Origin: a virus
Length of the DNA stretch: 38,651 nucleotides
IMG/VR virus record: IMGVR_UViG_3300044858_003573
Location: 1-38,651 of that record
Direction: 5' to 3' (one strand)
Shown piece after piece: positions 4,764-34,676 of the stretch. The position numbers and the translations under genes are program-made. The notes below the pieces were generated by a model. The model searched no databases and was not told the DNA's origin. It saw only the letters and a program-made list of their open reading frames with translations. Within the stretch, counting starts at the first letter, position 1. Every line of letters starts with the position of its first letter.

Positions 4764-5572
4764 TGCTGATACTGCGCAGACCTTGGACCGAGCAGCCGCA
4801 AGATGCGGTGGAGGTGGATTGGGGCAATCCGCTGGCGGTTGGTGTACGTGCGGCAGATATTCCAGCAATCGGCCCGTATCTAAGGATTGGCGCTCCCACG
4901 CTCAATCCAACGAGCAAAGGCATCGCGTTCAAGGGAGATGGTTCCAGCCAAGCGTTTTATCGGGATATTCCAGGTACGGTGGCGTCCTCAGACGGGCAAA
5001 CGGTGATCGCGCTAGTAATGGGGGCACAGTCAACAGACGCGCGATGCTACGGATTGGCTGACGCATCGAGCTATATCTTTTTCATTGGTTCGAGTGCTTC
5101 AACTGCGACAAAGATGCGGCTGTGGTATCGAGCGCCCAATACTGACATCGTCGGCTCAGACACATCTGCAACGGTTTTCGAAGATGGTGTGCCGCACCTT
5201 GCGGTAATGCGATTCCACAACGGTGTATTGGATAGTTTCGTTGATGGCATTCCTGATTCTTCCGTTTCTGGATCGCCCGCAGGCACATCGGCGGCTTTGC
5301 AGGTTGGTATATCAGGGCTTGTGCGAGCGAGTAGCGGTGCGGCTTACGCGGCGACCAATGTTGTGCTAGGGGTTTTTTGGGGGCGAGCCTTGACTGATGC
5401 CGAAATCAGGCAAGTGTCCGCAGACCCTTGGCAGCTATTCGCCCCCCGGCAAATCTGGATACCCGCAACTGCGGCAGCCAGTTTCAACCCGACCCTCTCG
5501 CTCCCCACTTACGTACCCGGCTCGCTGACATCCTCGGCGTTTCGTCCGCGAGTCACAGCAACCTGGAGCTAA
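4763..5572 (+). CDS. LamG/concanavalin-like lectin fold virion protein
   Basis: A 269-aa protein with the layout of a laminin-G/ConA-like beta sandwich: an IAFKGDGSSQAFYRDI strand region, RLWYRAPNTD, then PHLAVMRFHNGVLDSFVDG, and the characteristic closing VVLGVFWGRALTDAEIRQVS. The tail PWQLFAPRQIWIP is common in phage LamG-type fibre proteins. It probably binds glycans on the host surface or decorates a fibre. Its sequence looks less GC-rich than the flanking packaging and head genes, which suggests horizontal exchange. Start overlaps the previous stop (TAATG). Confidence 0.7.
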   Translation: MLILRRPWTEQPQDAVEVDWGNPLAVGVRAADIPAIGPYLRIGAPTLNPTSKGIAFKGDGSSQAFYRDIPGTVASSDGQTVIALVMGAQSTDARCYGLADASSYIFFIGSSASTATKMRLWYRAPNTDIVGSDTSATVFEDGVPHLAVMRFHNGVLDSFVDGIPDSSVSGSPAGTSAALQVGISGLVRASSGAAYAATNVVLGVFWGRALTDAEIRQVSADPWQLFAPRQIWIPATAAASFNPTLSLPTYVPGSLTSSAFRPRVTATWS

Positions 5573-6013: not shown

Positions 6014-7456
6014 ATGACAACTACCAACGGCAATCGTAAAATCCTCGACCTCAAGCGCTGGGAGTTCTGCACTCCCGTACCGACGGCAACCGTCGCCGGG
6101 GCGTTTATCGCATCGTCGCGCCACTATCGGCAGCAGCAGCTGTATGTCGCAAGCGCCACGGTGCACTATCTGTACAGCCCGATGGAAGATGCGGCGGTGC
6201 AAATCCCCTCTGGTGCGCTCGCTGGCACTTTTGCCGTCGGAGCATGTGGAGTGGCAACCGCTGTCGGCCCCTCGGGTACTGCGACGGCGGGCACGACCTC
6301 GACGATCACGACCAATTTGACGCTGGCCCGTGACCTACGCGGCTACAGCATCCACATCACCGGCGGCCCGAACGCTGGCGCGACACTGGCGATCTCGTCG
6401 AATACGGTCGGCACGAACTCGGTCATTACCGTCCCGGTACAGGCGTCGGCGTTCACGGCCTCGACCACCTACCGACTGCTGACGCCGAGGTGGTACGTGC
6501 TGAACGCCATCACGGCGGCGGGCACCACGACTGCGGCGGTGTTCCGCTTCTACGATTTTGCGCTCAATACCTGGACATCGGCCGAGACCGGCGCGACAGA
6601 CGGTATTGCTCCGGCGGCAGTGATCGGCACGGACTCCAAACTCATCGCCACGCCATCCTGGGTCGGCTCTGATTACAGGGCATTCGCCACCGGCACGGCC
6701 ACTGCGGGCGGCGCGTCGACGCTGACCAACTCAGCGAAGACTTGGACGACGAACCAGTGGGCGAACTATCAGGTCCGCATCGTGTCAGGCACGGGCGCAG
6801 GCCAGATCCGCACCATCAGCAGCAACACCGGCACCGTGCTGACGACCTCGGCGGCGTGGACAACGCAGCCCGACGCTACGAGCGTGTACAACATCGAGGG
6901 CAACGACGACTTCATCTACTACCTCGGCAGCAACGCCGTCACGCTGTATCGCTATTCAATCAGCGGCGGCACATGGACAACCTTGTCCCCGACCGCCGCC
7001 CGTGCCGCCGCCCCCGGCGTTGGAATGTCTGCGCACTGGGTTCATGAGGCGACGGACGCCGCGTGGACGAACGAGTCGGACATCCGCAACGGGCGGTTCA
7101 TCTACAGCTTTCGGGGAACCGCTGGTGCCGTGCTCGACCGCTACGACATCGCGCTCAATACGTGGGCCAGCGCACTCACCTACGCACCGTCAACAGAGGT
7201 TTTCGGCGCGGGAAGCAAATACGTCTACCGCAAAGACTGGATCTACTCGCAGAAGGATGCCACCGGCAGGTGGTTCCGGTACAACGTGGTGACCAATGAG
7301 CAGGATGGCTGGTCAACCATAACGTACACGCAGGGCGCGGCCATCGCTGGGGATACGGCGTTTGATGTCGTGTACACCGACGGCGCGACAGAAATCGATT
7401 ACGTGTACATGGTGCTGAACACCAGCACCGTGCTGCTGCGAGCACAGGTGGTGTGA
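6014..7456 (+). CDS. Large beta-rich tail/fibre protein
   Basis: A 480-aa protein of repeated beta units. Aromatic and polar strands such as WYVLNAITAAGTTTAAVFRF, DDFIYYLGSNAVTLYRYS and YVYRKDWIYSQKDATGRWFR recur at propeller-like intervals, compatible with a kelch-type beta propeller. Two similar inserts (residues about 85-150 and 220-290) carry an ITGGPNAG / IVSGTGAGQ motif followed by ISSNT, typical of phage fibre insert domains. It is probably a receptor- or glycan-binding virion protein. The start ATG follows the previous TAA directly. Confidence 0.6.
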   Translation: MTTTNGNRKILDLKRWEFCTPVPTATVAGAFIASSRHYRQQQLYVASATVHYLYSPMEDAAVQIPSGALAGTFAVGACGVATAVGPSGTATAGTTSTITTNLTLARDLRGYSIHITGGPNAGATLAISSNTVGTNSVITVPVQASAFTASTTYRLLTPRWYVLNAITAAGTTTAAVFRFYDFALNTWTSAETGATDGIAPAAVIGTDSKLIATPSWVGSDYRAFATGTATAGGASTLTNSAKTWTTNQWANYQVRIVSGTGAGQIRTISSNTGTVLTTSAAWTTQPDATSVYNIEGNDDFIYYLGSNAVTLYRYSISGGTWTTLSPTAARAAAPGVGMSAHWVHEATDAAWTNESDIRNGRFIYSFRGTAGAVLDRYDIALNTWASALTYAPSTEVFGAGSKYVYRKDWIYSQKDATGRWFRYNVVTNEQDGWSTITYTQGAAIAGDTAFDVVYTDGATEIDYVYMVLNTSTVLLRAQVV

Positions 7457-7457
7457 C

Positions 7458-7619
7458 ATGACTATCGCTCAAATCATCGAGATGCTCAAACGCCGGCTGG
7501 TCAATCTGAGCCAGCTTCGCACCAGTGCCGCCGACCTGGGCGACTTGGACCGGGTGTCCATCATCGACGCGGAAATCGCGGAAACGCAGAACACCCTTGC
7601 CGCGCTAGAAACGCTGTAA
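7458..7619 (+). CDS. 53-aa coiled-coil phage protein
   Basis: This short gene encodes MTIAQIIEMLKRRLVNLSQL and a further 33 residues, a continuous heptad-patterned helix with the DRVSIIDAEIAETQNTL core typical of small phage coiled-coil proteins. It starts at the ATG overlapping the previous stop context (GTGACATG) and ends 3 nt before the next gene. Such proteins may act as fibre-assembly spacers or chaperones, but this is not demonstrated. Perfect packing between neighbours supports it as a real gene despite its size. Confidence 0.7.
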   Translation: MTIAQIIEMLKRRLVNLSQLRTSAADLGDLDRVSIIDAEIAETQNTLAALETL

Positions 7620-7622
7620 GCC

Positions 7623-8798
7623 ATGCTGCTGACGCTACTGCAGCTCAACCTGCAGTCCTCCGCGCAATACCAGGCATACTGGATCGCGCACGCCGCCGCG
7701 AGTTGGCCGGGTGTGCCAACGGGCGCGCAGATTAAGGCTGGCAACCTCTCCAACTCATCGCCCGCGAGTTACAGCGGCAGCGAGCCTGTCACCGACAGCA
7801 GCACGGGCACGCGGACGATTGACGAAGCGACGGCGATCACCGGGCTGACAGCCAGCACTGCGTACACCCTGGCGTGGGTGGTCTGGGATAGCGTTGCAGA
7901 TACATACAGCAATGTTGTTGTCGGTGATGTCACGACAGATGCGGCTGGAAGCGTAATCACCCCGGCAGCGGGCACCTCGACTGCAGGCACCCTGGCCGGA
8001 TCGGCTACCGCCGCTGCTGCAATCACCGAGGCCACTGGCGCGGCCACGACCAACACTCTCGCCGCAGCCTCGACGGCTGCCGCCACGATCACCGCCGCCG
8101 CTGGTGTCGCCACCACCTCAACCATGGCGTCGGGGTCTGCCACTGCGGCGGCGATCACCCCAGCCGCTGGTGCTGCCACGGCCAGCACGTTGACTGCGGC
8201 GGCAACGGCAGCGGCATCCATCACCGCCGCCGCCGGGTCGACAACGGCCAGCACCATGGTCGGCACAGGCCTGACCGCAGGCGCATCGGCGATCACTCCG
8301 GCGGCTGGCTCTACGACGGCCAGCACGCTTGCCGCATCGGCGACGGCCTCTGCTGCAATCACCCCAGCCGCTGGCTCGACGGCAGCCAGCACTCTCGGCG
8401 CAGCATCAACGGCGTCGGCCTCCATTACCCCGGCGGCAGGCGCGGCTGCGGCATCGACGATGGCCAGCGGGTCGTCGACCATCGTCTCCGGGTCCATGAC
8501 GCCCGCAGCCGGGGCCACCACCGCCGCCACGTTCGCCGCCAGTGCCGTGGCCGCATCGGTGGCGATCGCGGCAGCTGGCGCATCGTCGGCGCAGACGATG
8601 GGGGCCAGCGCCACGGCCCGGGCCGCAATTGCAGCCGCGGCTGGCGTTGCAAGCTGCGCGGTACTCTATCCGCCTGCAGGCGAATTCGTGCCCAACCAGC
8701 GCACGCACCTGGTAACTCTACAAAACCGCATGGCCGCAATCCCCCGCGAACGCCGCGTGCTCACCGTCCCGCGCCAAAACCGCGCCCACACCGTATAG
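7623..8798 (+). CDS. Ala/Thr-rich tandem-repeat fibre protein
   Basis: A 391-aa protein in three parts. Residues 1-110 resemble an FN3-like fibre domain (YQAYWIAHAAASW; ITGLTASTAYTLAWVVWD). Residues about 111-345 are eleven imperfect repeats of about 22 residues with the core ITPAAGSTTASTLAASATA. A short basic tail follows, with alternating VTLQNR, VTVPRQNR and HTV motifs common at the ends of phage adhesin-block proteins. The repeat probably forms an extended shaft or solenoid at the virion surface. Only Ala, Thr, Ser, Gly, Ile and Pro dominate it. The repeat phase is preserved across all units, so it is selected rather than random low complexity. Confidence 0.7.
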   Translation: MLLTLLQLNLQSSAQYQAYWIAHAAASWPGVPTGAQIKAGNLSNSSPASYSGSEPVTDSSTGTRTIDEATAITGLTASTAYTLAWVVWDSVADTYSNVVVGDVTTDAAGSVITPAAGTSTAGTLAGSATAAAAITEATGAATTNTLAAASTAAATITAAAGVATTSTMASGSATAAAITPAAGAATASTLTAAATAAASITAAAGSTTASTMVGTGLTAGASAITPAAGSTTASTLAASATASAAITPAAGSTAASTLGAASTASASITPAAGAAAASTMASGSSTIVSGSMTPAAGATTAATFAASAVAASVAIAAAGASSAQTMGASATARAAIAAAAGVASCAVLYPPAGEFVPNQRTHLVTLQNRMAAIPRERRVLTVPRQNRAHTV

Positions 8799-8806
8799 AG
8801 GCAGAA

Positions 8807-9115
8807 ATGGCAGACACCTATTACACCGACACCGATGGCCTGCTCACGATCGACAAAGACCCCCAGGCCGTGCTGGACTATGCTTTCGACTGGTCTGCCT
8901 GGCTGTCCGCCATCAGCGACACGATCACCGGCACCCCGACCTGGACGCTCGGCACCGGCCTGACCAAGGACAGCCAGAGCAACACGACCACCGTGGCAAC
9001 CGCCTTTATTTCCGGCGGCCAGGTGGGATCAAAAGCGCCAGTGTCCTGCCGGATCACCACCGCAGGCGGGCGAACCGACGAACGCACCGTCTACCTGCAG
9101 ATCGTCAACCGGTAG
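8807..9115 (+). CDS. Fibre-tail adaptor-like (Gp77-type) structural protein
   Basis: A 102-aa protein with the sequence DKDPQAVLDYAFDWSAWL near its start, then ISDTITGTPTWTLGTG and an Ig-like strand set ending RTDERTVYLQIVNR. This pattern is common in phages next to fibre genes, where it is called a fibre-tail adaptor or Gp77-like protein. It closes the inserted surface-protein block. A 54-bp gap with a repeated motif separates it from the next gene. The Ig-like fold is inferred from pattern only. Confidence 0.65.
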   Translation: MADTYYTDTDGLLTIDKDPQAVLDYAFDWSAWLSAISDTITGTPTWTLGTGLTKDSQSNTTTVATAFISGGQVGSKAPVSCRITTAGGRTDERTVYLQIVNR

Positions 9116-9169: not shown

Positions 9170-9736
9170 ATGACCGTAGCCATCCCCACCATCGAGCCGC
9201 AGTCCATCACCGCCGGTGACACTGCGGCGTGGAAAAAGTCTCTCGGCGACTACCCTGCCAATGACTCCTGGGTCCTGGCCTACACGCTGATCAACGCCAC
9301 CAGCAAGATCACCATCACCGCCACCGCCAGCGGCGCAGAGCACTCCGTCAGCGTCGCAGCCAGCACCACCGCCGCCTGGGCTCCAGGCACGTATACCTGG
9401 CAGTCGACAGTCACCAAGGGCGCGGAGCGCTACACCATCACCCAGGGCCGCATCACCATCCTGCAGAACCTGGCCGCCGCGACCCTGCTCGACACCCGCA
9501 GCGCTGCCCGCAAGGCCCTGGACGCTGCCGATCTTGCCCTGGCCACCTACGGCGCCAAAGCCTACCTGCAGGAGTACCAGATTGGCGACCGCCGCCAGCG
9601 CTTTGCCGACCCCTCCAGTTTCATGGCATGGCGCGACAAGCTCAGGGCCGAAGTCGCCCGCGAAGACAACGTCGCCCGCCTCAAGGCCGGCCTGGCGCCC
9701 AAAAACCTGCTATTCACAAGGTTCACCGCCCGATGA
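9170..9736 (+). CDS. Ig-like domain protein with gpW-like C-terminus, candidate head-completion protein
   Basis: A 188-aa protein. Residues 1-105 are a beta-sandwich-like domain (PTIEPQSITAGDTAAWKKSL... YTWQSTVTKG). Residues 106-188 are helical with YQIGDRRQRFADPSSFMAW, the same order of elements as lambda gpW (helix, DGRR-type beta hairpin, helix). Its location between terminase and portal is exactly that of gpW. It would plug the head after packaging and form the head-tail interface. The gpW comparison is my pattern-based inference. It overlaps the portal gene by 4 nt. Confidence 0.6.
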   Translation: MTVAIPTIEPQSITAGDTAAWKKSLGDYPANDSWVLAYTLINATSKITITATASGAEHSVSVAASTTAAWAPGTYTWQSTVTKGAERYTITQGRITILQNLAAATLLDTRSAARKALDAADLALATYGAKAYLQEYQIGDRRQRFADPSSFMAWRDKLRAEVAREDNVARLKAGLAPKNLLFTRFTAR

Positions 9737-11304
9737 TGCCAACCACCCAGCGCCCGGGCATCGTGTCGCGCATCATGCGCGCCCTGGTCGCCAAGCCAGC
9801 GCCGCGCCAGGTGCAGCAGCGCAACTACGCCGCCGCCCAAGTCAACAGGCTGACGCACGGCTGGTCTGTGCACAACTCCAGCGCCAACGCCGACATTTTC
9901 CGCAGCCTGGACAAACTGCGCGCCCGATCACGCCAGCTCGCGCAAAACGATGAGTACGTCAAACGCTGGCTCAGCATGGTCTGCACCAACGTCGTGGGCC
10001 CGGCCGGCTTTCGCTTCCAGGCCCGCGTGTACAACAGCCCAGGCCAGCCCGACCAGCTGGGCAATGACGCCATCGAGGCCGCCTGGCAGCGCTGGTCCAA
10101 GGTCTGCGACGTGGCAGGCCGAAACCGCCTGAACGACCTGCTGCAGATCAACATCAAGGCCGTCGCCCGTGACGGCGAATGCCTTATCCACCTGGTGCGC
10201 GGCGCGGAGGCTGGCAACCCCTTCGGCCTGGCCCTGCAGCTCCTGGACGTGAACCGGCTGGACACGCAGCTCCAGCGCCCCGAGGCGCCTGGCGTGAACG
10301 CCATCCGCATGGGCATCGAGGTCAACCGCTACAACCGCCCGCTGGCCTACTGGCTGCGCATCAAGAACCCGGGCGATGTCTATGGCGGCGTGGTCGCCGG
10401 CGCCAGCCTCTCCACCCATGAGCGCTTCGACGCGGCTGACATCATCCACGCCTTCATCAGCGACGACGCCGAGCAGGTGCGCGGCGTGCCATGGGCCCAT
10501 GCCGCCATGATGCGCCTGAACAACCGGGGCGGGTATGAGGAGGCCGCCATCATCGCTGCGCGCGTCGGCGCCAGCAAGATGGGCTTTTTCACCACACCAG
10601 ACGGCCAGGCCGAGGTGCTCAGCACCGGCAAGATCGACGACGGCACCGAGGGCGACGAACAGCCGCTGGCCATGGACGCAGACGCTGGCACCTTCCAAAG
10701 CCTGCCCGAGGGCGTCCAGTTCACGCCCTTCAACCCGGAATACCCCACGGCGATGTTCGCCGACTTCATCAAGGCCAACCTGCGCGGCACCGCGTCTGGC
10801 CTGGGGGTGGCCTACCACGCGCTGGCCAACGACCTGGAGGGCGTGAGCTTCTCCAGCATCCGCAGCGGCACGCTCGAGGAGCGCGACAGCTGGATGGTGA
10901 TCCAGGAATGGTTTGTAGGCGCGGTGATGGAGCGCATCCACACCGAGTTCATGGCCGCCGCGCTGAGCTTTGGCCAGATCACCATGCCCAACGGCAGCGC
11001 GCTGCCACTGGCCAAGCGTGAAAAGTTCATGGCCCACACCTTCCAGGGCCGCCGCTGGGAGTGGGTCGACCCCCGCGCCGACATCGAGGCAGACATCAAC
11101 GCCATCAACGCTGGCCTGAAGTCCCCGCAGTCCGTGGCTGCCAAGCTCGGCCTGGACTACGAAGATCTGCTGATCGAGATCAAAGCCGCCGCCGACATGC
11201 GCAAGCGCCTGGGCGTCGAGCTGGCCGGCACACCCAACCCCCAACAACTTGCCGCAGCAGCTGGAGCCGCTGCGGGCCAAGCCAACGCAACATCAAAAGA
11301 GTAG
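9733..11304 (+). CDS. Portal protein (lambda gpB family)
   Basis: This 523-aa protein is the dodecameric vertex through which DNA enters and leaves. N-terminal features typical of the lambda-family portal are present: LTHGWSVHNSSANADIF, DKLRARSRQLAQNDEYVKRW and NVVGPAGFRFQARV. The clip/stem region follows around GASKMGFFTTPDG, then the conserved FSSIRSGTLEERDSW. Length matches the family (about 500-530 aa). The start is one of two adjacent ATGs overlapping the upstream TGA. The C-terminus is Ala/Gln-rich and flexible. Confidence 0.95.
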   Translation: MMPTTQRPGIVSRIMRALVAKPAPRQVQQRNYAAAQVNRLTHGWSVHNSSANADIFRSLDKLRARSRQLAQNDEYVKRWLSMVCTNVVGPAGFRFQARVYNSPGQPDQLGNDAIEAAWQRWSKVCDVAGRNRLNDLLQINIKAVARDGECLIHLVRGAEAGNPFGLALQLLDVNRLDTQLQRPEAPGVNAIRMGIEVNRYNRPLAYWLRIKNPGDVYGGVVAGASLSTHERFDAADIIHAFISDDAEQVRGVPWAHAAMMRLNNRGGYEEAAIIAARVGASKMGFFTTPDGQAEVLSTGKIDDGTEGDEQPLAMDADAGTFQSLPEGVQFTPFNPEYPTAMFADFIKANLRGTASGLGVAYHALANDLEGVSFSSIRSGTLEERDSWMVIQEWFVGAVMERIHTEFMAAALSFGQITMPNGSALPLAKREKFMAHTFQGRRWEWVDPRADIEADINAINAGLKSPQSVAAKLGLDYEDLLIEIKAAADMRKRLGVELAGTPNPQQLAAAAGAAAGQANATSKE

Positions 11305-11306
11305 AC

Positions 11307-12812
11307 ATGACAATGCGTATCACGATGAACCAGGCCCGCATGGGCGAGTCTGGGAGCCTGCTGACGGCAGGCAGCACAAACACGGTCTCCGATGCGTTTG
11401 GCGCGGCCATGGTGGGCGCTGGGTATGCGACGGATACGGATGGCGCGCTGACGCCGCCGGACTCCGAGCCAGTGCGCCTATCAGCTGATGGCACATCCCT
11501 GGTGTCAGGGGATGGGAATCGCCTGTTCTTTTCCCCATCTGGCAGCGTGCTGATCGCGGGGTTTGGTGATTCGATCACCGATCAGAACTCGCTCGTCAAC
11601 TCGACGCAAAGCTATCTGTATGCAAACGGCTACATGACCTGGGCCAGCATTCTCAGCGGCGGGAAACTGACGTTCACGGATGCCATCAATTACGGCGTCG
11701 CAGGCGACACAACTACGCAGATGGTTGCCCGTCTGTCAACGACACTTGCTGCAATCTACGCATCGGGCGCAAAGTATTGCGTTGTGCTGGCTGGCACTAA
11801 CGATGTGTACGGCGGCGTGACCTACGCACAGACCATTGCAAACCTTGCGACGATCTATGGCGGCTTTCTTAGCCTAAATATTGTTCCGGTAATCGTGCCG
11901 ATATTGCCAAGGGCAAGAGATGCGGCGTCTGGCTCAATGCTTACCGCAGACCGGCAGAAGCTGCAGCGCATCAACAACTGGATTCGTGAATACGCACGCA
12001 CAACGCCTAACGTGGTGATTGCAGACCCGACTCTCAACATCGTGGATCAGGCTGTGACCAATGGCGACCCGATCGGCGCATTGTTGGCAAACACAACCGC
12101 GTACACCTACGATGGGCTGCACCCTGCGGCCCGTGGCGCGTACTGGATCGGCAAAGCAATTTGCGACGCTTTGCAATATCGTCTCTCTGGCATTTCTCAA
12201 GCCCTGTGGTCGCAGATCGACACCTACGACGCCACAAACAACCCGTCGGGCAACCTGCTGGCAAACGGCTACATGACGGGCACAGGCGGCACCAACGGCA
12301 CTGGGTCGAGCGGAAGCGTTGCGACTTCTTGGACGGCGCGAAGGCTCGTCGGAACCACTGGCGCTCTGGTGTGCAGCAAAACCACAGTCACCGCAGGAAA
12401 CGGAACGACCTACCCGCAGCAGACCATCGCGTTTACTGCCACTGCAGGGTCTGCCACGGAAGAGCTGCAGGTCTATCAACAAGTATTCCCAAGCGGAACT
12501 ACCTACGCAGTGGGCGACACGGTTTATGCGGAATGCGATGTCTCCGTATCCGGCATTACTGCGGCATCGTTCCGAAGCATTTACTTGAAGTGCGCCGATG
12601 ATGGTGTAGACAGTCGAATCGGGCAGCCAAGCGGGGCGGGCTACATGCCTGACAGCACCTGGAGCGGCACAATGCGCAGCCCTGCATTTGTCATTAAGGC
12701 TGGAACGACGGCGATCACAGTTTCAATGCACGCGCAGATTGATGGAACCGTCGCCAGCGCAGGCGTCACGGTAAATTTCAGCCGCGTGGCACTGCGCAAG
12801 GTTGGCGTGTAA
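11307..12812 (+). CDS. SGNH/GDSL-type hydrolase fused to phage attachment and carbohydrate-binding-like domains
   Basis: A 501-aa protein. Residues 1-60 (MNQARMGESGSLLTAGSTNTV) resemble short phage virion proteins and may be the attachment part. The SGNH hydrolase domain carries FGDSIT (nucleophile S89), NYGVAGDTT, GTNDV and DGLHP (D269, H272), covering the catalytic blocks. Residues about 310-501 form a beta-sandwich region like a carbohydrate-binding module. It would de-esterify surface polysaccharide, acting as a tail-spike-like enzyme or capsule/O-antigen deacetylase. Its location between portal and capsid is unusual, and its sequence looks less GC-rich. A terminator follows it. Confidence 0.8.
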   Translation: MTMRITMNQARMGESGSLLTAGSTNTVSDAFGAAMVGAGYATDTDGALTPPDSEPVRLSADGTSLVSGDGNRLFFSPSGSVLIAGFGDSITDQNSLVNSTQSYLYANGYMTWASILSGGKLTFTDAINYGVAGDTTTQMVARLSTTLAAIYASGAKYCVVLAGTNDVYGGVTYAQTIANLATIYGGFLSLNIVPVIVPILPRARDAASGSMLTADRQKLQRINNWIREYARTTPNVVIADPTLNIVDQAVTNGDPIGALLANTTAYTYDGLHPAARGAYWIGKAICDALQYRLSGISQALWSQIDTYDATNNPSGNLLANGYMTGTGGTNGTGSSGSVATSWTARRLVGTTGALVCSKTTVTAGNGTTYPQQTIAFTATAGSATEELQVYQQVFPSGTTYAVGDTVYAECDVSVSGITAASFRSIYLKCADDGVDSRIGQPSGAGYMPDSTWSGTMRSPAFVIKAGTTAITVSMHAQIDGTVASAGVTVNFSRVALRKVGV

Positions 12813-12843
12813 TCCCATCCCCTGCCGGTAGGCATCCAAATCA

Positions 12844-12866
12844 GCCACCCCCGGGGTGGCTTTTTT
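12844..12866 (+). terminator. Rho-independent terminator after the SGNH gene
   Basis: GCCACCC pairs with GGGTGGC across a three-base CCG loop and is followed by six T. It lies 31 nt after the esterase stop and immediately before the second copy of the 25-bp repeat. It would separate the esterase transcript from the capsid gene, so the capsid gene needs read-through or its own promoter. Confidence 0.9.
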
Positions 12867-12918: not shown

Positions 12919-14793
12919 ATGAAGACAGCCCCCCTCAAGACCATCAAGCCCGGCACCGTCGTGCAGCGCGGCATGCTGTTCGACCGTGCGGCCATCGACG
13001 CCGAGGCGCGCACCGTCCCCCTGGCCTTCGCGTCCGAAACCCCCTACGCGCGCTGGTGGGGCATCGAGGTGCTCGACTGCTCCCCCACCGCCATGCGCAT
13101 GGGTCGGCTCACCAGTGGTGGCCCGCTCCTGTGCGATCACGACACCCGCGACCAGATCGGAGTCATCGAATCAGTGTCACTCGGTGCGGACAAAGTAGCC
13201 CGCGCCGTCGTTCGCTTTGGAAAGAGCGAGCGCGCTGAGGAAGTGTTCCAGGACGTGTTGGACGGCATTCGGCGCAATGTCAGCGTCGGTTACCAGATCC
13301 ACAAGGCCCAGCTGGTCGAGGTCGAAGGCGACCCGGAAAAAGAAGGCGGCGAGGACACCTACCGCGTCACCGACTGGGAGCCGATGGAGATCAGCCTGGT
13401 CTCCGTTCCCGCCGATGCCTCCGTGGGTGTCGGCCGCAGCGCAGGCGAGTCCCCCGTCATCGAAGTTCAACCCGCAAAACCCCATTTTCTCAAGGAGTCC
13501 ACCGTGACCACAGCCGCCCCCGAAGCTGCCCCTGTTGCAGCACCCGCCGCCCCCGCCCTCTCCAGCCAGGATGTCCGCAACCAGGTCGCCCTGGAGCGCA
13601 AGAACATGACCGAGATGCTCGCCCTGGGCGACGTGCACGAGCGCTTCGGCGGCCGCAAGCTGGCCCAGGAAGCCATCGAGCGCGGTGACAGCATCGACGC
13701 CCTGCGCTCGCACATCATGAACGCCATGACGGCCGCGCAGAAGGGCACCACGCCCCCGACGAACCTGGACCTGTCCAAGAAGGACACCCAGCGCTTCAGC
13801 CTGTTCAAGGCCATCAATGCCCTCACGCAGAAGTCCTGGGCCGGTGCCGAGTTCGAGAAAGAGTGCCACGACACCATCCTGCAGCGCACCGGCCTGCGCG
13901 AGGCCGTGCACCAAGGCTTCTACCTGCCCACCGACATCCAGAAGCGCGACCTGACGGTCGGCACGCCCACGGCCGGCGGCAACCTGGTGGCCACCGACCT
14001 GCAGGCCCAGAGCTTCATCGACCTGCTGCGCGCCCGCAGCCGCGCCGCCCAGCTCGGCATGACGATGCTCTCCAACCTGGTGGGCAACGTGTCGATCCCC
14101 AAGCTCACCGGTGCGGCCACGGCCTACTGGCTGGCCAACGAAGCCACGCCCATCACCGAGAGCCAGCAGACGATCGGCCAGCTGGCCCTGGCGCCCAAGA
14201 CGCTGGGCGCCTACACCGAGCTCTCGCGCCTGCTGATGCTGCAAAGCACGCCGGCTGCCGAGGCGCTGGTCATGAACGACCTGGCCAAAGTGCTGGCCCT
14301 GGCGATCGACCTGGCGGTGTTTGAGGGCTCTGGCAGCTCTGGCCAGCCGACGGGCATCAGCCTGACGGCCGGCATCGGCTCGGTCACCGGCGCGTCGATC
14401 GACCTGGCCAAATGCATCGAGTTCCAGACCGATCTGGCAACCGGCAACGCCTTGGCCGATGGTTGTGCATACATCACCACGCCTGCAGTCGCCGGCCTGA
14501 TGAAAGGGCGGGTGCGTGTGTCGTCCACCGACAGCGTCATGCTGTGGTCCGGCTCAGTGCTTGACGGCCAGATCGAAGGCTTCCCGGCCACGACCTCCAC
14601 GCAGCTGACCGCCGCCTCGATGATCTTCGGCGACTTCAGCCAGGTCGTCCTGGCCGAGTGGGGCATGCTTGAGATTGCGCTCAACCCCTACGCCGCATTC
14701 GCCACAGCCATCACCGGCATCCGCGCCATCCAGACGGTCGACGTGGGCATCCGCCAGGCCGCGGCCTTCTCGCGCGCCACGTCCATCAGCTGA
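12919..14793 (+). CDS. Fused prohead protease-scaffold-major capsid protein (HK97 fold)
   Basis: The 624-aa gene product joins three functions. Residues 1 to about 185 are a caudoviral prohead protease of the HK97 gp4 type, with the LLCDHD histidine (H74) and the NVSVGY serine (S122) as catalytic residues. Residues about 195-290 are helical scaffold-like sequence. From about residue 300 the HK97-fold major capsid protein follows (GTPTAGGNLVATDL; FSRATSIS at the end). In most phages these are separate genes. A strong in-frame internal start at 13504 would also give a 429-aa scaffold-capsid product without protease. Self-cleavage is expected to release mature capsid subunits. Confidence 0.92.
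   Translation: MKTAPLKTIKPGTVVQRGMLFDRAAIDAEARTVPLAFASETPYARWWGIEVLDCSPTAMRMGRLTSGGPLLCDHDTRDQIGVIESVSLGADKVARAVVRFGKSERAEEVFQDVLDGIRRNVSVGYQIHKAQLVEVEGDPEKEGGEDTYRVTDWEPMEISLVSVPADASVGVGRSAGESPVIEVQPAKPHFLKESTVTTAAPEAAPVAAPAAPALSSQDVRNQVALERKNMTEMLALGDVHERFGGRKLAQEAIERGDSIDALRSHIMNAMTAAQKGTTPPTNLDLSKKDTQRFSLFKAINALTQKSWAGAEFEKECHDTILQRTGLREAVHQGFYLPTDIQKRDLTVGTPTAGGNLVATDLQAQSFIDLLRARSRAAQLGMTMLSNLVGNVSIPKLTGAATAYWLANEATPITESQQTIGQLALAPKTLGAYTELSRLLMLQSTPAAEALVMNDLAKVLALAIDLAVFEGSGSSGQPTGISLTAGIGSVTGASIDLAKCIEFQTDLATGNALADGCAYITTPAVAGLMKGRVRVSSTDSVMLWSGSVLDGQIEGFPATTSTQLTAASMIFGDFSQVVLAEWGMLEIALNPYAAFATAITGIRAIQTVDVGIRQAAAFSRATSIS
13492..13506 (+). promoter_or_regulatory. Internal ribosome-binding site and in-frame GTG start inside the protease-capsid gene
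   Basis: AAGGAG at 13492-13497 lies 6 nt ahead of GTG at 13504, which is in frame with the full gene (codon 196). Initiation here would make a 429-aa scaffold plus capsid precursor in excess over the protease fusion, analogous to the nested C/Nu3 genes of lambda. The signal is better than that of the full-length start at 12919. Confidence 0.75.
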
Positions 14794-29641: not shown

Positions 29642-30327
29642 GTCTTTCCTGTAGGTTCCTCGTCTTCTCTGCAAATGCGGTTCACCTGGCGCTGGATCTG
29701 GCCGCGCAGGTGCACAAGGGGCGCGGTCTCCGGCTGGCTGTTCCAGGCGACATTGCGCCTGCCGTTTTCGCCGCGGCTGATGCACTCCAGGCGGTCTAGG
29801 GTGATCTCTTCGAGCACCGTCGTTTTGGTGCCGGGCTTGAACACGACCAGGTGGCCGGCCGGCGCGGGGCCGTTGGCTGCCTCCCACACCAGGCGGGCCA
29901 CCGGCGTCCAGCGCATGTGGTTCGCGCCCTTGCGCTCGCTGGTCTTGCGTTCGAGCTGCCCGCCGCTGATGCGCAAGGTGCCGATCGGCTTCCAGGTGTG
30001 CGGCTTCTGGCCAGGCTTGAATTGCGTCTCTTTTGACCGGCCCCCGGCGTCGAAACTCTCGCCCTTGTTCCATGGTTGGTGGCCTGGCTTGAAGCGGCTC
30101 AGCTTTGCTTTGACGTGCTGCATGCCCCGCAGGATGCGCCCGCTGGTCTCGCCGGTCAGGTAAGCCTCGGTCTTGTGCAGTTTCAGCCGGTTGGCCAACT
30201 GATACACACGCAACACTGTGGTCTGCAGCACCTGCGCCACATGCTCGGTGGGGTAGTGGGGATACAGCTCTCGCATAACCTCGGCGACTTGCGGGTCGCT
30301 GGGCTGCAATGGGTGGCGACGGGTCAC
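29638..30327 (-). CDS. HNH-endonuclease-like protein
   Basis: A 229-aa basic protein. Residues 1-60 carry a small HTH-like repeat (PTEHVAQVLQTTVLRVYQLANRL), residues 65-115 a Gly/Lys/Pro-rich stretch with repeated FKPGHQPWNKG and FKPGQKPHTWKPIG motifs. The C-terminal part has HMRWTPVARLVWEAANGPAP and GHLVVFKPGTKT, as in phage HNH_3-type proteins. The last histidine/asparagine motif is not clear, so nuclease activity is uncertain. Start is GTG 30327, translationally coupled to the 18-codon gene upstream (GTGA). Confidence 0.7.
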   Translation of the reverse strand: MTRRHPLQPSDPQVAEVMRELYPHYPTEHVAQVLQTTVLRVYQLANRLKLHKTEAYLTGETSGRILRGMQHVKAKLSRFKPGHQPWNKGESFDAGGRSKETQFKPGQKPHTWKPIGTLRISGGQLERKTSERKGANHMRWTPVARLVWEAANGPAPAGHLVVFKPGTKTTVLEEITLDRLECISRGENGRRNVAWNSQPETAPLVHLRGQIQRQVNRICREDEEPTGKT

Positions 30328-30380
30328 AGCGCCACCGCCTTGCGCGCCATGGTGCCCTTGCCGGGTCGGTAGTTCTTCAT
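30324..30380 (-). CDS. 18-residue minigene upstream of the HNH-like gene
   Basis: A tiny ORF encoding MKNYRPGKGTMARKAVAL on the minus strand. GAGG lies 8 nt upstream of its ATG, and its TGA overlaps the GTG of the HNH-like gene. It may be a leader peptide or translational coupler, or the residue of a longer gene. Too short for sequence comparison alone to prove. Confidence 0.4.
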   Translation of the reverse strand: MKNYRPGKGTMARKAVAL

Positions 30381-30395
30381 GGCGGTCTTCCTCAG

Positions 30396-30686
30396 TTAGT
30401 TGCTCTGCGGGGCATTCCCGATCATTAATTGACCAAGGTGCACCACCTGCCCAAGCTGTCCGCCTTTTTCGCGCAATTCAATGCTGGTTTTCGCCACCTT
30501 GATTTCGGCGTTAAGGCTGTTGCTAATCGATTCCAAGCCCTTCGCCATCGCTTCCACATCCGTAGCGCTTAGCTCCTTGCGAGCAAGCGCCAGCAAACTG
30601 TTCGCCACGATCCGGCGCAAGTCGCCCTGCGTTGCCACCTCGCCCATGTTGCCCAGCGATTCGGTCAATGTCTTTGCTGCTTTCAT
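30396..30686 (-). CDS. Small helical protein overlapping the zinc-finger gene
   Basis: A 96-aa helical protein, MKAAKTLTESLGNMGEVATQ at its start, then RIVANSLLALARKELSATDVEAM and LNAEIKVAKTSIEL. Coiled-coil or DNA-packaging-type helices are plausible. Its first 164 nt overlap the 3' end of the upstream gene in another frame, unlike the 1-4 nt overlaps elsewhere. Function unknown. It could be a structural accessory of the zinc-finger protein or a later regulator. Confidence 0.55.
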   Translation of the reverse strand: MKAAKTLTESLGNMGEVATQGDLRRIVANSLLALARKELSATDVEAMAKGLESISNSLNAEIKVAKTSIELREKGGQLGQVVHLGQLMIGNAPQSN

Positions 30687-31140
30687 GTAGTTTCTCCAGT
30701 GCTTTAGAAATAAGCTTTTTTGCTCGCTTAACCGTGAGGTGCTCGCGTTTCAGTGCTAAAAGCTCGGGGGTAACTTGTGCCTTGGTTAGGCCGCTCCAGG
30801 GGTGCGCTAAAATATTCTTCACGTAGCTGTCGGTAAGACGCTCTCGCTGCAGCCTGCTCGCCTCTTTGTGATACCCGGCCGCGAGCCTGCGCATGTAGGT
30901 TTCTGGCTGCCGCTGCCGTGTTTTTGCTAGCTGCTCGTCTCGGTTGCGTGCGTACCAATCGCGGTGTCGTGCCTTCGCTTTTTCGTAGTGCGGGTTTGCA
31001 GCCCCGCCCAGTTGGCTGCAGCAGCTTTTGCATCTGCTCTCCCAGCGCATCCCGCGTGCGCCGTTCTTTCGCCAGTAGAACCATTCCACTCTCAGCAGCG
31101 AGCGCTTGCAAAGCGGGCATGTCTTGAATTCAGAGACCAT
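30523..31140 (-). CDS. Zinc-finger protein with basic helical tail
   Basis: A 205-aa protein. Residues 1-45 form a treble-clef-like zinc site: C8, C11 (CPLC) and C37, C40 (CKSCC). Residues 55-145 are Arg-rich helices (ARHRDWYARNRDEQLAKTRQR). The last 55 residues are read through the start region of the next gene and lack obvious structure. Family members that I recall end earlier, near the LISKALEKL segment, so the tail may be a lost stop. DNA or RNA binding is likely. Start at 31140 overlaps the upstream gene by 11 nt. Confidence 0.65.
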   Translation of the reverse strand: MVSEFKTCPLCKRSLLRVEWFYWRKNGARGMRWESRCKSCCSQLGGAANPHYEKAKARHRDWYARNRDEQLAKTRQRQPETYMRRLAAGYHKEASRLQRERLTDSYVKNILAHPWSGLTKAQVTPELLALKREHLTVKRAKKLISKALEKLHESSKDIDRIAGQHGRGGNAGRLAPDRGEQFAGACSQGAKRYGCGSDGEGLGID

Positions 31141-31849
31141 CGCGCTCTCCGCCAAAATCAGTAAAGCCTTCACCGTTCGTGACGTTGATGACCATGCCGC
31201 CATGGCTGGCCTGCAGGGCGCGCAGCGTCGTGCGGATCAGGGCCGGGATGTCCAGGCCGTTGATCAGCACCCGCTCGGGGCGAAACCGCATGCCGTCGGT
31301 CTGGCTGGCGTGGCCGCCCTCCAGCGTCTGGTGGCCGGGGCGCTGCACTTGCCAGATCTCTCCGCCCAGCCGGCGCACGGCCTGGGCCTCGTTGTCGAAG
31401 CGGCAGTCGGTGATCACCCAGCGCGCGTCTTCGTCACTATTGGCGGCGATGTGCACCGCTGTTTTGGTCGACCAGTAGTTGGCCGACTCCGCCCTGCGGT
31501 ATTCCGTACCCCACCACTGCATGATCTGGCGCGGCGAGCGCGGCGCGTAGACCCATGCCTCCCAATCGAAGTCGGGCTGCTCTGCGCTGTGCAGGGCCAT
31601 CATGCGCTCGACGAACGGCTCATGGTGGCAGCGGCAGAAGGCCAGTGCGTCGGTCGCCACTTCCTTCGTGGCGCGGTCGCTCAGGATGTGCGCCCGGTCG
31701 CCCAGGTGGTAGCCGCCGGCCACCTCCAAGCGCAGCTGGTCGGCGAAGGCAATCTTGCGGAATCCGGCATGGGTGACCAGCGCGTCCGCCACTGTGTCCT
31801 TGCCTGCCCCGGCAAACCCGGTCAGGCCAATGATGATGTGCGCCGCCAT
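31130..31849 (-). CDS. Deoxynucleoside monophosphate kinase-like P-loop protein
   Basis: A 239-aa protein with the P-loop GFAGAGKDT (residues 11-19), then AFADQLRLEV and the LID-like RQIMQWWGTEYRR. The layout matches phage dNMP kinases of the T4 gp1 type, which phosphorylate dNMPs to feed replication. Conserved RWVITDCRFDNEAQAVRRLGG provides the following strand. ATG 31849 is adjacent to the previous stop (TGATG). In some phages a dNMP kinase accompanies modified bases, but no modification gene is seen here. Confidence 0.85.
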   Translation of the reverse strand: MAAHIIIGLTGFAGAGKDTVADALVTHAGFRKIAFADQLRLEVAGGYHLGDRAHILSDRATKEVATDALAFCRCHHEPFVERMMALHSAEQPDFDWEAWVYAPRSPRQIMQWWGTEYRRAESANYWSTKTAVHIAANSDEDARWVITDCRFDNEAQAVRRLGGEIWQVQRPGHQTLEGGHASQTDGMRFRPERVLINGLDIPALIRTTLRALQASHGGMVINVTNGEGFTDFGGERDGL

Positions 31850-33572: not shown

Positions 33573-33610
33573 CCTTCACTCCTTGCCGCCGGGGTGGCGG
33601 GTTGGAGTGA

Positions 33611-33640
33611 ATTATTAAGCGGCTCGCTTTGCTATGTCAA
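33611..33640 (-). promoter_or_regulatory. Leftward early promoter (PL-like)
   Basis: On the minus strand, -35 TTGACA (plus-strand TGTCAA 33635-33640, a full match) is followed after 18 bp by -10 AATAAT (plus-strand ATTATT 33611-33616, 5 of 6). It faces the early operon starting at 33572. Both operators OL1 and OL2 lie over it, so repressor binding would block RNA polymerase. Confidence 0.85.
33617..33629. promoter_or_regulatory. Operator OL1
   Basis: AAGCGGCTCGCTT is a perfect dyad (AAGCG / CGCTT, 3-bp centre). It sits in the spacer and -10 side of the leftward promoter and shares its consensus with four other sites. Flanking TTAAGCG extends the half site. Confidence 0.75.
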
Positions 33641-33651
33641 GCGTATTGCTT
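33639..33651. promoter_or_regulatory. Operator OL2
   Basis: AAGCGTATTGCTT, a 4-of-5 half-site match to the palindrome, overlaps the -35 element of the leftward promoter and is 22 bp centre-to-centre from OL1. GCTTAA on its right extends the dyad. Confidence 0.75.
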
Positions 33652-33655
33652 AACT

Positions 33656-33901
33656 TTATTCGCGGGGCGTTGCTGGCCCCGTCCGTATGGCCTCGACAAC
33701 TTTCTCGGTGAGCTTGCTTGGCGAGTCCTCGTACATGATCTGGATGGACTTGGCCAGCACGTAGGGAACCACAGCGAACGCGCACGCCATGGCGTAGCCA
33801 GCTGCTTCCTGTGGAGCGCTGTTTGTCATGACGAGGGTGCCTAGGGTAATCAGAACGGCAATGATGGCGCCGATCAGCGGTAGTACGAAGACGAATCGCA
33901 T
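33656..33901 (-). CDS. Two-TM membrane protein in the rex position
   Basis: An 81-aa protein with an N-terminal transmembrane segment (FVFVLPLIGAIIAVLITLGTLV) and a second (GYAMACAFAVVPYVLAKSI), followed by a charged tail. AGGAG lies 7 nt before the ATG at 33901. An in-frame GTG/ATG at 33925 would make an 89-aa form. The gene follows the repressor gene on the same strand and would be expressed in the lysogen, where lambda carries rexA/rexB. Superinfection exclusion is the obvious hypothesis; sequence similarity to RexB was not assessed. Confidence 0.6.
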   Translation of the reverse strand: MRFVFVLPLIGAIIAVLITLGTLVMTNSAPQEAAGYAMACAFAVVPYVLAKSIQIMYEDSPSKLTEKVVEAIRTGPATPRE

Positions 33902-33962
33902 GGTGTGCTCCTGTTCGATGCGCAACTATTTGCGCGCCGTCGGAAAGGGTAGCACCTTAGCG

Positions 33963-34337
33963 CTAGGGCGCGCCGTTTCCCTGTCGTGGGTCTGGTTGCG
34001 CAATCGTATCAATGATTTTTACGGCTCGGTCGAGTTCGTAATCAGACATTGATTCCATCACCAGGTGGGCGTGTTCAATGCGCTTTTGCCTGTGTGTTAG
34101 GAGGGGATGTTCGTGGTCCATCCAGCCGCGTTCTTTGCCACAGGAGCTTTCCATCTTCCGTGCCAACGGGTCGCCGATCTGCCTGGGCTTTTTTGTTTTG
34201 CTGTCCGGCGCTCGGTTCTTGAGCTGGCTGATGTAGACGGCGGAGGAATTGACCTTGCTGGCCAAGGCTTCCGCGCTGCCAAGTTCCTCGATCAAAAGCA
34301 GCAGATTGTCCAGGCGGATCTCTGCAATAGTTTTCAT
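33963..34337 (-). CDS. Short repressor (cI-like HTH without S24 domain)
   Basis: A 124-aa protein. Residues about 20-42 form an XRE/lambda-repressor-type helix-turn-helix (SAEALASKVNSSAVYISQLK). The region after residue 80 is helical with no C-terminal S24 autocleavage domain (no Ala-Gly cleavage site or Ser/Lys dyad visible). It is the likely lysogenic repressor for the AAGCG operators beside it. ATG 34337 lies 13 bp from the first operator. Lack of a peptidase domain means RecA-type induction must work differently. Confidence 0.8.
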   Translation of the reverse strand: MKTIAEIRLDNLLLLIEELGSAEALASKVNSSAVYISQLKNRAPDSKTKKPRQIGDPLARKMESSCGKERGWMDHEHPLLTHRQKRIEHAHLVMESMSDYELDRAVKIIDTIAQPDPRQGNGAP

Positions 34338-34349
34338 GAGTGCAATTGG

Positions 34350-34362
34350 AAGCGAATTGCTT
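34350..34362. promoter_or_regulatory. Operator OR, repressor-proximal
   Basis: AAGCGAATTGCTT, consensus AAGCGNNNYGCTT, lies 12 bp upstream of the repressor ATG. Occupancy would affect repressor expression. GCTTAA flanks it. It is separated by 25 bp from the next site. Confidence 0.75.
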
Positions 34363-34374
34363 AACTCTTGGAAT

Positions 34375-34387
34375 GAGCGAAGCGCTT
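34375..34387. promoter_or_regulatory. Operator OR, middle
   Basis: GAGCGAAGCGCTT, with one mismatch in the left half site. It overlaps the candidate -35 (TTGCAT 34386-34391) of the rightward promoter. Spacing to the neighbouring sites is 25 and 23 bp centre to centre, as in lambda OR. Confidence 0.65.
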
Positions 34388-34421
34388 GCATTGTCTTAAG
34401 CGATGCGCTTATACTGTTTGC
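34386..34421 (+). promoter_or_regulatory. Rightward early promoter (PR-like), candidate leaderless
   Basis: -10 TATACT at 34410-34415 (5 of 6) with a weak -35 TTGCAT at 34386-34391, spacer 18 bp. The Cro-like ATG begins 7 nt after the -10, right where transcription should start, and no ribosome-binding site precedes it. This suggests a leaderless mRNA. The repressor's own promoter could not be identified with confidence. Confidence 0.65.
34398..34410. promoter_or_regulatory. Operator OR, Cro-proximal
   Basis: AAGCGATGCGCTT is a perfect half-site dyad and occupies the spacer of the rightward promoter, adjoining its -10 (TATACT). TTAAGCG...CGCTTAT flanks extend the match to about 17 bp. Confidence 0.8.
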
Positions 34422-34676
34422 ATGAAACTCGCCGACTACCTATCCGCACACGGCAGCCAGACCGAATTGGCGCGGGCCGTTGGGGCGCAGCCGCAGCTTG
34501 TCTGGCAGTGGTCTCGCGGCGTGCGCAAGATCCCCATCGAGCGCTGTATGCCCATCGAGCGCGCTACAAATGGTGTAGTCACCCGCAAAGACTTGCGCCC
34601 CGACGACTGGCAGGAGATCTGGCCCGAGCTGGCCCCCACCAACCCATCCACGGAGCCCGCTGCGGCGGGTGTGTGA
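34422..34676 (+). CDS. Cro/YdaS-like regulator
   Basis: An 84-aa protein with the YdaS/Cro-type fold: MKLADYLSAHGSQTELARAV, QPQLVWQWSRGVRKIPIERC, then TRKDLRPDDWQEIWPEL. The HTH spans about residues 12-32. It is the first gene rightward from the immunity region, so it would be a Cro analogue competing with the repressor at the AAGCG operators. An upstream in-frame ATG at 34386 would overlap operators and is not preferred. Confidence 0.85.
   Translation: MKLADYLSAHGSQTELARAVGAQPQLVWQWSRGVRKIPIERCMPIERATNGVVTRKDLRPDDWQEIWPELAPTNPSTEPAAAGV

Follow-up and report, generated by a model that had tools for sequence, protein, structure and literature searches.

An SGNH esterase gene between phage portal and capsid genes whose enzyme part is probably exchanged as a DNA cassette at two short borders

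The window analysed here, a viral record of 38,651 nucleotides (nt) taken at its full length (IMG/VR IMGVR_UViG_3300044858_003573, positions 1 to 38,651), contains an esterase gene lodged between its portal and capsid genes (Table 1). The AlphaFold2 model of the 501-residue product reveals a compact N-terminal domain (residues 1–50), designated the anchor, followed by a disordered linker (residues 52–78), an SGNH domain, and a β-rich C-terminal part of low confidence. SGNH/GDSL hydrolases are defined by sequence blocks named GDS, GxND, and DxxH. The protein matches PF13472 (E 9e-16; 59.3 bits against a cut-off of 32.9), residues 83–499 match phrog_6102 (E 1e-54), and a Foldseek search with the model returned SGNH esterases at E values of about 1e-7. 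Both sequence (the family match together with three catalytic blocks) and fold place the protein in the SGNH/GDSL family. This agrees with the original prediction, which described an SGNH gene with intact catalytic blocks between portal and capsid; the blocks are GDS, GTND, and DGLH, and the flanking genes encode a PF05136 portal and an S78/HK97 capsid protein. A carbohydrate-binding C-terminus had also been proposed. This proposal found no support, as the β-rich region has no Pfam match at E ≤ 0.01. Two short elements of this gene, a left border (L) inside the linker and a right border (R) directly behind the stop codon, are the subject of what follows.

A protein scan of viral contigs identified six relatives of the window protein. 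In five of them (L003–L007; L followed by three digits denotes a locus, whereas L and R alone denote the borders), residues 1–73 or more are shared at 71–100% identity, and the preceding portals are 98–100% identical to that of the window. The C-termini of these five proteins are unrelated to the window C-terminus. That of L005 shows a weak match to polysaccharide deacetylases (PF01522, E 0.026, below the cut-off), that of L003, which lacks a Pfam match, looks like a deacetylase by eye only, and the modules of L006 and L007 run off the contig ends. The sixth relative, L002, carries the SGNH module of the window (residues 56–501) on a different N-terminus, beside a podovirus connector (PF12236) and a capsid gene. 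Thus, an N-terminus is kept with unrelated C-termini and one C-terminus is found on different anchors, as in modular receptor-binding proteins. Genes that share the anchor have a common sequence directly 3′ of the stop codon (TCCCATCCCCTGCCGGT), which corresponds to R; a second common sequence (CYTGGTGTCAGGGGNTGGGA), located inside the genes at the junction between anchor and module, corresponds to L. The original prediction had mentioned neither these borders nor the fact that relatives keep the anchor and attach other modules to it.

The two borders occur as a pair. A scan for R together with a stop codon retrieved 38 viral stretches, most of which are ends of unrelated genes, with a few behind short open reading frames (ORFs). 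The gene types that end at R include SGNH, deacetylase-like, hydrolase-like, and β-helix-like, labels that were assigned partly by eye. A scan for L only retrieved 51 viral stretches. With the exception of L139, all of them (50) place L within a single reading frame that is either long or truncated by the contig end. Allowing up to 2 mismatches in R, we found it 1.2–2.4 kb downstream of L on the same strand in all 25 distinct L sites that are followed by at least 2.6 kb of sequence. Control searches of the same 347,648 bases yielded no match on the other strand and 1 upstream of L. When all 38 distinct L sites are counted, that of the window included, 32 have a downstream match, one of which is false: that of L137, outside the 25, falls within a module truncated by the contig end. 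In the opposite direction, L is present in 16 of 17 R-selected ORFs of at least 200 residues with their 5′ part present; it is degenerate in L098 and L103, and L107 has no L.

Comparison of L and R revealed that both contain the 12-mer CAGGGGNTGGGA, in inverted orientation and with one free base at the same position. Common sites are therefore present at both ends of the segment, as in site-specific recombination cassettes. Among 42 non-redundant cassettes, conservation has sharp edges within L and at either side of R, and upstream of L it declines over a few bases (logos and covariation were computed from 42 cassettes for L, 40 for the R logo, and 39 with R for covariation). The free base of L falls on codon position 2, whereas the wobble positions are fixed. 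Because the wobble bases are fixed, the constraint acts on DNA; conservation of the linker at the protein level was rejected for the same reasons. Most positions of L were fixed by the search pattern, which makes the R-selected set the fairer test of this constraint. In that set, the serine of L is encoded by TCA in 15 of 15 genes that have a serine there, compared with 10% TCA among the serines of the same ORFs. L also contains a dyad (ANCCYTG-GTGT-CAGGGGNT) whose free bases are complementary in 25 of 42 cassettes versus 14.4 expected (p about 1e-4), a covariation that may reflect two linked L haplotypes. Between L and R, the free bases show weak complementarity (16 of 39 versus 11.3; p 0.02). 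An arrangement of L and R as direct repeats was unsupported (20 of 39 equal versus 17.6 by shuffling; p 0.2).

Anchors and modules are reassorted across the borders. The 49 distinct cassettes, L003 among them, cluster into 28 anchor families and 23 module families; the SGNH family of the window is found on nine anchor families and the main deacetylase family on eight. Sequence changes abruptly at the borders in pairs of loci that share a module. L173 and L142 agree at 1378 of 1379 bases in the segment bounded by L and R; outside it, identity is random from 2 nt before L and directly after R. The window and L110 (the contig of L002) share 90.2% DNA identity inside, with exact runs that extend 12 nt upstream of L and 1 nt beyond R. 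For L155 and L098, identity inside amounts to 98.3%, and the exact runs measure 3 nt before L and 1 nt after R. Pfam searches of 39 modules, near-duplicate and truncated ones being left out, identified 12 GDSL_2, 5 polysaccharide deacetylase, 2 GH28, and 2 LamG domains; 34 anchors were scanned as well. The guanine-plus-cytosine (GC) content of cassettes is 61.0% versus 64.6% in their flanks and is the lower of the two in 37 of 44.

In 10 of the 49 cassettes, two of which share one module, R lies 267–2004 nt behind the stop codon of the module, and in five of these ten a second ORF of 112–665 residues ends 5–10 nt before R. The unit is therefore a stretch of DNA rather than one gene. Judged by eye and without a family search, these second ORFs included no noticeable nuclease or recombinase; by the same inspection they appear phosphatase-like (L106), glycosidase-like (L140, L154, and L158), or lectin-like (others). 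A separate observation concerns L123, in which an anchor of the L098 type is followed by a short tail without L and by R. The protein ends in residues similar to those that close the L147 module, and L123 is possibly an enzyme-less version of the cassette gene.

Table 1. Positions of the esterase gene, its borders, and neighboring features in the window.
Feature	Position	Strand	Support or remark
Coding sequence, 501 residues	11307..12812	+	Anchor, linker, SGNH esterase, and β-rich C-terminus
N-terminal anchor domain, residues 1–50	11307..11456	+	AlphaFold2 confidence (pLDDT) about 90; common to relatives with other C-terminal modules
Left border L, CCYTGGTGTCAGGGGNTGGGA	11497..11517	+	In frame; encodes LVSGDG (residues 65–70); inside disordered linker
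Left arm of 12-base-pair inverted repeat, CAGGGGATGGGA	11506..11517	+	
SGNH/GDSL hydrolase domain, residues 83–286	11553..12164	+	PF13472/PF00657, Foldseek
Catalytic block GDS, residues 87–89	11565..11573	+	
Catalytic block GTND, residues 163–166	11793..11804	+	
Catalytic block DGLH, residues 269–272	12111..12122	+	
β-rich C-terminal part	12174..12809	+	Inside phrog_6102 match
Right border R, TCCCANCCCCTGCCGGT	12813..12829	+	Directly after stop codon
Right arm of 12-base-pair inverted repeat, TCCCATCCCCTG	12813..12824	+	
Intrinsic terminator of phage backbone, outside cassette	12843..12866	+	Same sequence behind another module in L005
Portal, lambda family (context)	9628..11304	+	PF05136, E 9e-93
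Fused S78 protease/HK97 major capsid gene (context)	12919..14793	+	PF04586 and PF05065

These findings suggest a model, which we consider likely, in which the gene encodes a virion-attached adsorption enzyme and its enzyme part is a DNA cassette that can be exchanged at L and R. The N-terminal ~50–65 residues would dock on the virion, and the flexible linker would join them to the SGNH esterase. Deacetylation of the host capsule, O-antigen, or exopolysaccharide would be the most likely role of the SGNH module. The cassette would extend from L, inside the linker, to R, immediately 3′ of the last stop codon. Recombination at these borders would then bring in another enzyme, in frame and whatever the anchor, and thereby change which surface sugar the phage can process. 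The original prediction had likewise envisaged a polysaccharide esterase acting at the host surface, which is plausible and agrees with those parts of published accounts of SGNH receptor-binding proteins that we consulted; the moron that it made of the gene is a different matter, taken up below.

The protein is probably attached to the virion, as suggested by its position beside portal and capsid genes and by a weak likeness of the anchor fold. This position recurs across phage types: the 69 immediate neighbors of cassette genes, scanned after exclusion of 11 near-duplicate, truncated, or doubtful loci, include portal or connector families (PF12236 in 5, PF05136 in 4, PF16510 in 2, and PF04860 and PF23899 in 1 each) and capsid families (3). 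Resolvase or recombinase families were matched by 2 of the same 69 neighbors. By sequence, the window anchor has no PHROG or Pfam match beyond a weak one to DUF7302 (E 0.05). By fold, its model weakly matches the C-terminal domain of lambda gpFI (2lsm, E 0.24) and small phage proteins of DUF7210 (E 0.03), a likeness that may provide a lead toward binding of the anchor to the head.

Several observations weigh against this model. All sequences except two loci are metagenomic contigs, and two of these (L003 and L012, the latter with the same module as L105) combine flanks of the siphovirus and podovirus types and are possibly chimeric assemblies; the pairs L173/L142, window/L110, and L155/L098 are independent of both. 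The borders are not universal, since R occurs without L in L107 and behind short ORFs in L123 and L125, and the anchor is accompanied by an SGNH domain without exact L or R in L017, L018, and the Leaf274 prophage. L (21 nt) and R (17 nt) offer little length for homologous recombination, the carriers have no recombinase in common, and the inverted relation of the borders is unexplained by plain homology.

How the exchange would take place is a matter for guesses. General short-homology recombination is our first choice, with about equal chances of being right or wrong, and is favored by the absence of a recombinase common to carriers: of 24 carrier records, 16 have an integrase, 2 a resolvase, 2 ERF, and 1 RecT below the cut-off. 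Gene clustering over 18 sets likewise identified no common recombinase, and a host enzyme is possible. A dedicated sequence-specific recombinase or nuclease ranks second and is appreciably less probable. The shared 12-mer, the dyad, and the constraint on DNA leave room for such an enzyme acting in trans. PF00239 is carried by only the L097 and L114 records among the 24, in which ORFs of the size of large serine recombinases lie directly upstream of the anchor gene (L097:8737-10341 and L114:5606-7291).

The alternative that survives best takes this enzyme as its starting point and regards L and R as sites recognized by a single recombinase, transposase, or homing-type nuclease whose gene resides in the host or in a helper element, with CAGGGGNTGGGA as the sequence that this enzyme binds. 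We consider it rather unlikely. It would account for the presence of the same inverted 12-mer in both borders with the free base in the same place, for the dyad in L and the excess of complementary free bases within it, and for a constraint on DNA rather than protein. It also fits with the fact that carriers have almost no other genes in common; across 17 pieces of carrier records and the window, the most widespread gene family occurs in 7 of 18 and the portal and terminase families of the window occur in 4 of 18, as determined by naive gene calls. However, the 24 records contain no common recombinase, covariation in the dyad may stem from linked haplotypes, and covariation between L and R is weak. 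Nor were target-site duplications, circular forms, or modules in inverted orientation seen, although no search was directed at them.

Alternatively, L and R could be conserved for expression, through RNA structure, translation, or transcript ends, and have no part in exchange. In most loci, R follows the final stop codon of the cassette at a distance of a few nt, and L could form an RNA hairpin, as this explanation would have it. We nevertheless consider it improbable. L resides inside the coding sequence of genes that are unrelated on both of its sides, the sequence after R differs from phage to phage, and identity between swap pairs ends exactly at the borders.

The remaining alternative concerns the origin of the gene. 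GC content across the esterase gene is 57–58% versus 64–67% on both flanks, which confirms the deviating composition noted earlier, although three other parts of the window (4801–5400, 30301–31200, and 33601–34500) are equally low; the profile is in any case not uniform along the window, and acquisition of the gene is not refuted. The same holds for its distribution. Of 80 contigs that encode a related capsid protein, 67 allowed both the portal and the capsid gene to be located; the gap between the two measures <300 nt in 44, 300–999 nt in 19, and ≥1 kb in 4. The anchor itself was detected by BLAST downstream of the portal in 3 contigs of this set of 80, namely L017 (fused to another SGNH), L021 (alone), and L018 (alone, with a separate SGNH ORF). 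Where a strong terminator had been attributed to the gene, there is a terminator-like hairpin followed by a T run (fold z -2.3); the 5 such matches in the region are no more than shuffling gives (mean 4.3). It is not the gene's own, however: an identical terminator stands 3′ of a different module in L005. A consensus scan for a promoter upstream of the gene found none above chance (1 site, inside the gene, versus a shuffled mean of 0.6). The original reading of the gene as a moron, meaning an esterase gene that was acquired and is expressed independently and that modifies the surface of the lysogen, can appeal to the lower GC content, the terminator behind the gene, its absence from this site in most capsid relatives, and the filing of phrog_6102 under 'moron, auxiliary metabolic gene and host takeover', but it is the least probable of all because no promoter rises above chance, the terminator belongs to the backbone and stays when the module changes, the first ~65 residues are kept while the enzyme changes, which fits a virion anchor, and other cassette genes adjoin head and connector genes.

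Other features of related head operons were noted along the way. Upstream of the portal in the lambda-type head operon of the window (6014–9115) are genes for a kelch-like protein of 480 residues and for proteins of 391 and 102 residues, the last of which matches PF23148 (podophage GP4 fiber-tail adaptor gp77; E 2.5e-26); relatives of this block adjoin the podovirus connector in L002. An SGNH match with 28% identity to the window module begins at L037:313, in a related head operon and ahead of its portal gene. In L092 (4576-6663) and L093 (5001-7088), also upstream of the portal, the window type of anchor carries a C-terminus of 695 residues that looks like a glycoside hydrolase by eye.

With respect to hosts, locus L175 lies in a genome from the same family as Pseudorhodoferax sp. 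Leaf274 (Comamonadaceae, Burkholderiales) and contains R and an L with 1 mismatch, and the Leaf274 genome has the anchor between portal and capsid genes together with a diverged R. These two loci point to Burkholderiales hosts for at least some carriers. Among 399 bacterial genomes of the family of G001, R was found in 2, once in the L175 cassette and once, apparently by chance, in L176; L had no match in 399 genomes of the order of G001. In 50,697 records of isolated phages, L and the first 48 residues of the anchor had no match, and R had partial matches only (16–21 nt, best E 2).

Phages thus seem to trade surface-acting enzymes as ready-made cassettes. Changes of host specificity through trading of receptor-binding domains are usually deduced from mosaicism. 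Here, two short borders predict where a cassette starts and stops with nearly single-base accuracy, in phages with almost no other genes in common, and the exchange is therefore directly testable. L and R can also serve as search keys with which to find surface-active enzymes in uncultivated phages. One may speculate further, and only tentatively, that L and R are the recognition sites of a trans-acting recombination system, as yet undescribed, through which unrelated phages of Burkholderiales-like hosts draw on a common pool of one- or two-gene surface-enzyme cassettes, inserted in frame behind any anchor. If true, this system would amount to an integron-like exchange standard for phage adsorption enzymes.

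In the shufflon of IncI plasmids, short inverted sites bound exchangeable C-terminal segments of an adhesin. The cassette described here resembles it in having short inverted sites at both ends of an exchangeable C-terminal segment. Unlike the shufflon, it is present once per genome, no adjoining alternative segments were seen, and no recombinase is common to the carriers. Tetart, Desplats and Krisch reportedly observed in 1998 that tail-fibre adhesins of T-even phages are swapped at conserved motifs. That exchange is said to involve homologous adhesins in related phages, whereas the system in the window joins unrelated enzymes to unrelated anchors.

SGNH domains have been described in receptor-binding proteins of temperate Klebsiella phages, for which excerpts of the study report esterase activity (PMC13123978), and abstract-level accounts report that a Pectobacterium phage fibre and an Acinetobacter phage tailspike have deacetylating activity (PMC9569702, PMC8471582). 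Like the putative receptor-binding protein of the window, these have an SGNH or deacetylase domain in a virion receptor-binding protein; as far as these extracts go, they are tail fibres or tailspikes, whereas the window gene adjoins portal and capsid genes. In cryoconite phages, regions encoding GDSL-lipases and tail fibres switch between variants in otherwise stable genomes, according to portions of the report (PMC7468147). Those variants are homologous genes in one phage backbone, whereas L and R are short borders found across unrelated phages.

The closest precedent comes from tailspikes of E. coli phages in six lytic genera, in which, according to the sections consulted, the receptor-binding domain is flanked on both sides by conserved DNA motifs that were proposed to be recombination hotspots (PMC10408124). 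The kind of exchange is therefore already known. Like L and R, these motifs flank an exchangeable domain and are shared across phage genera, and R matches the coliphage pattern as conserved noncoding DNA behind a gene. They differ in size and precision, measuring 44/95 nt and 20 nt with 63–81% mean identity, whereas L and R comprise 21 and 17 nt and are nearly invariant; this comparison is by description rather than by alignment of the motif sequences. In the same sections, the downstream coliphage motif is a predicted terminator, and the motifs are absent from prophage genera. By contrast, L and R are mutually inverted, occur in records with and without integrase genes, and can bound two genes. 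The literature searched, part of it in excerpt, yielded no description of these elements, and the L/R pair is an unusually sharp new variant of the exchange motifs that flank receptor-binding domains.
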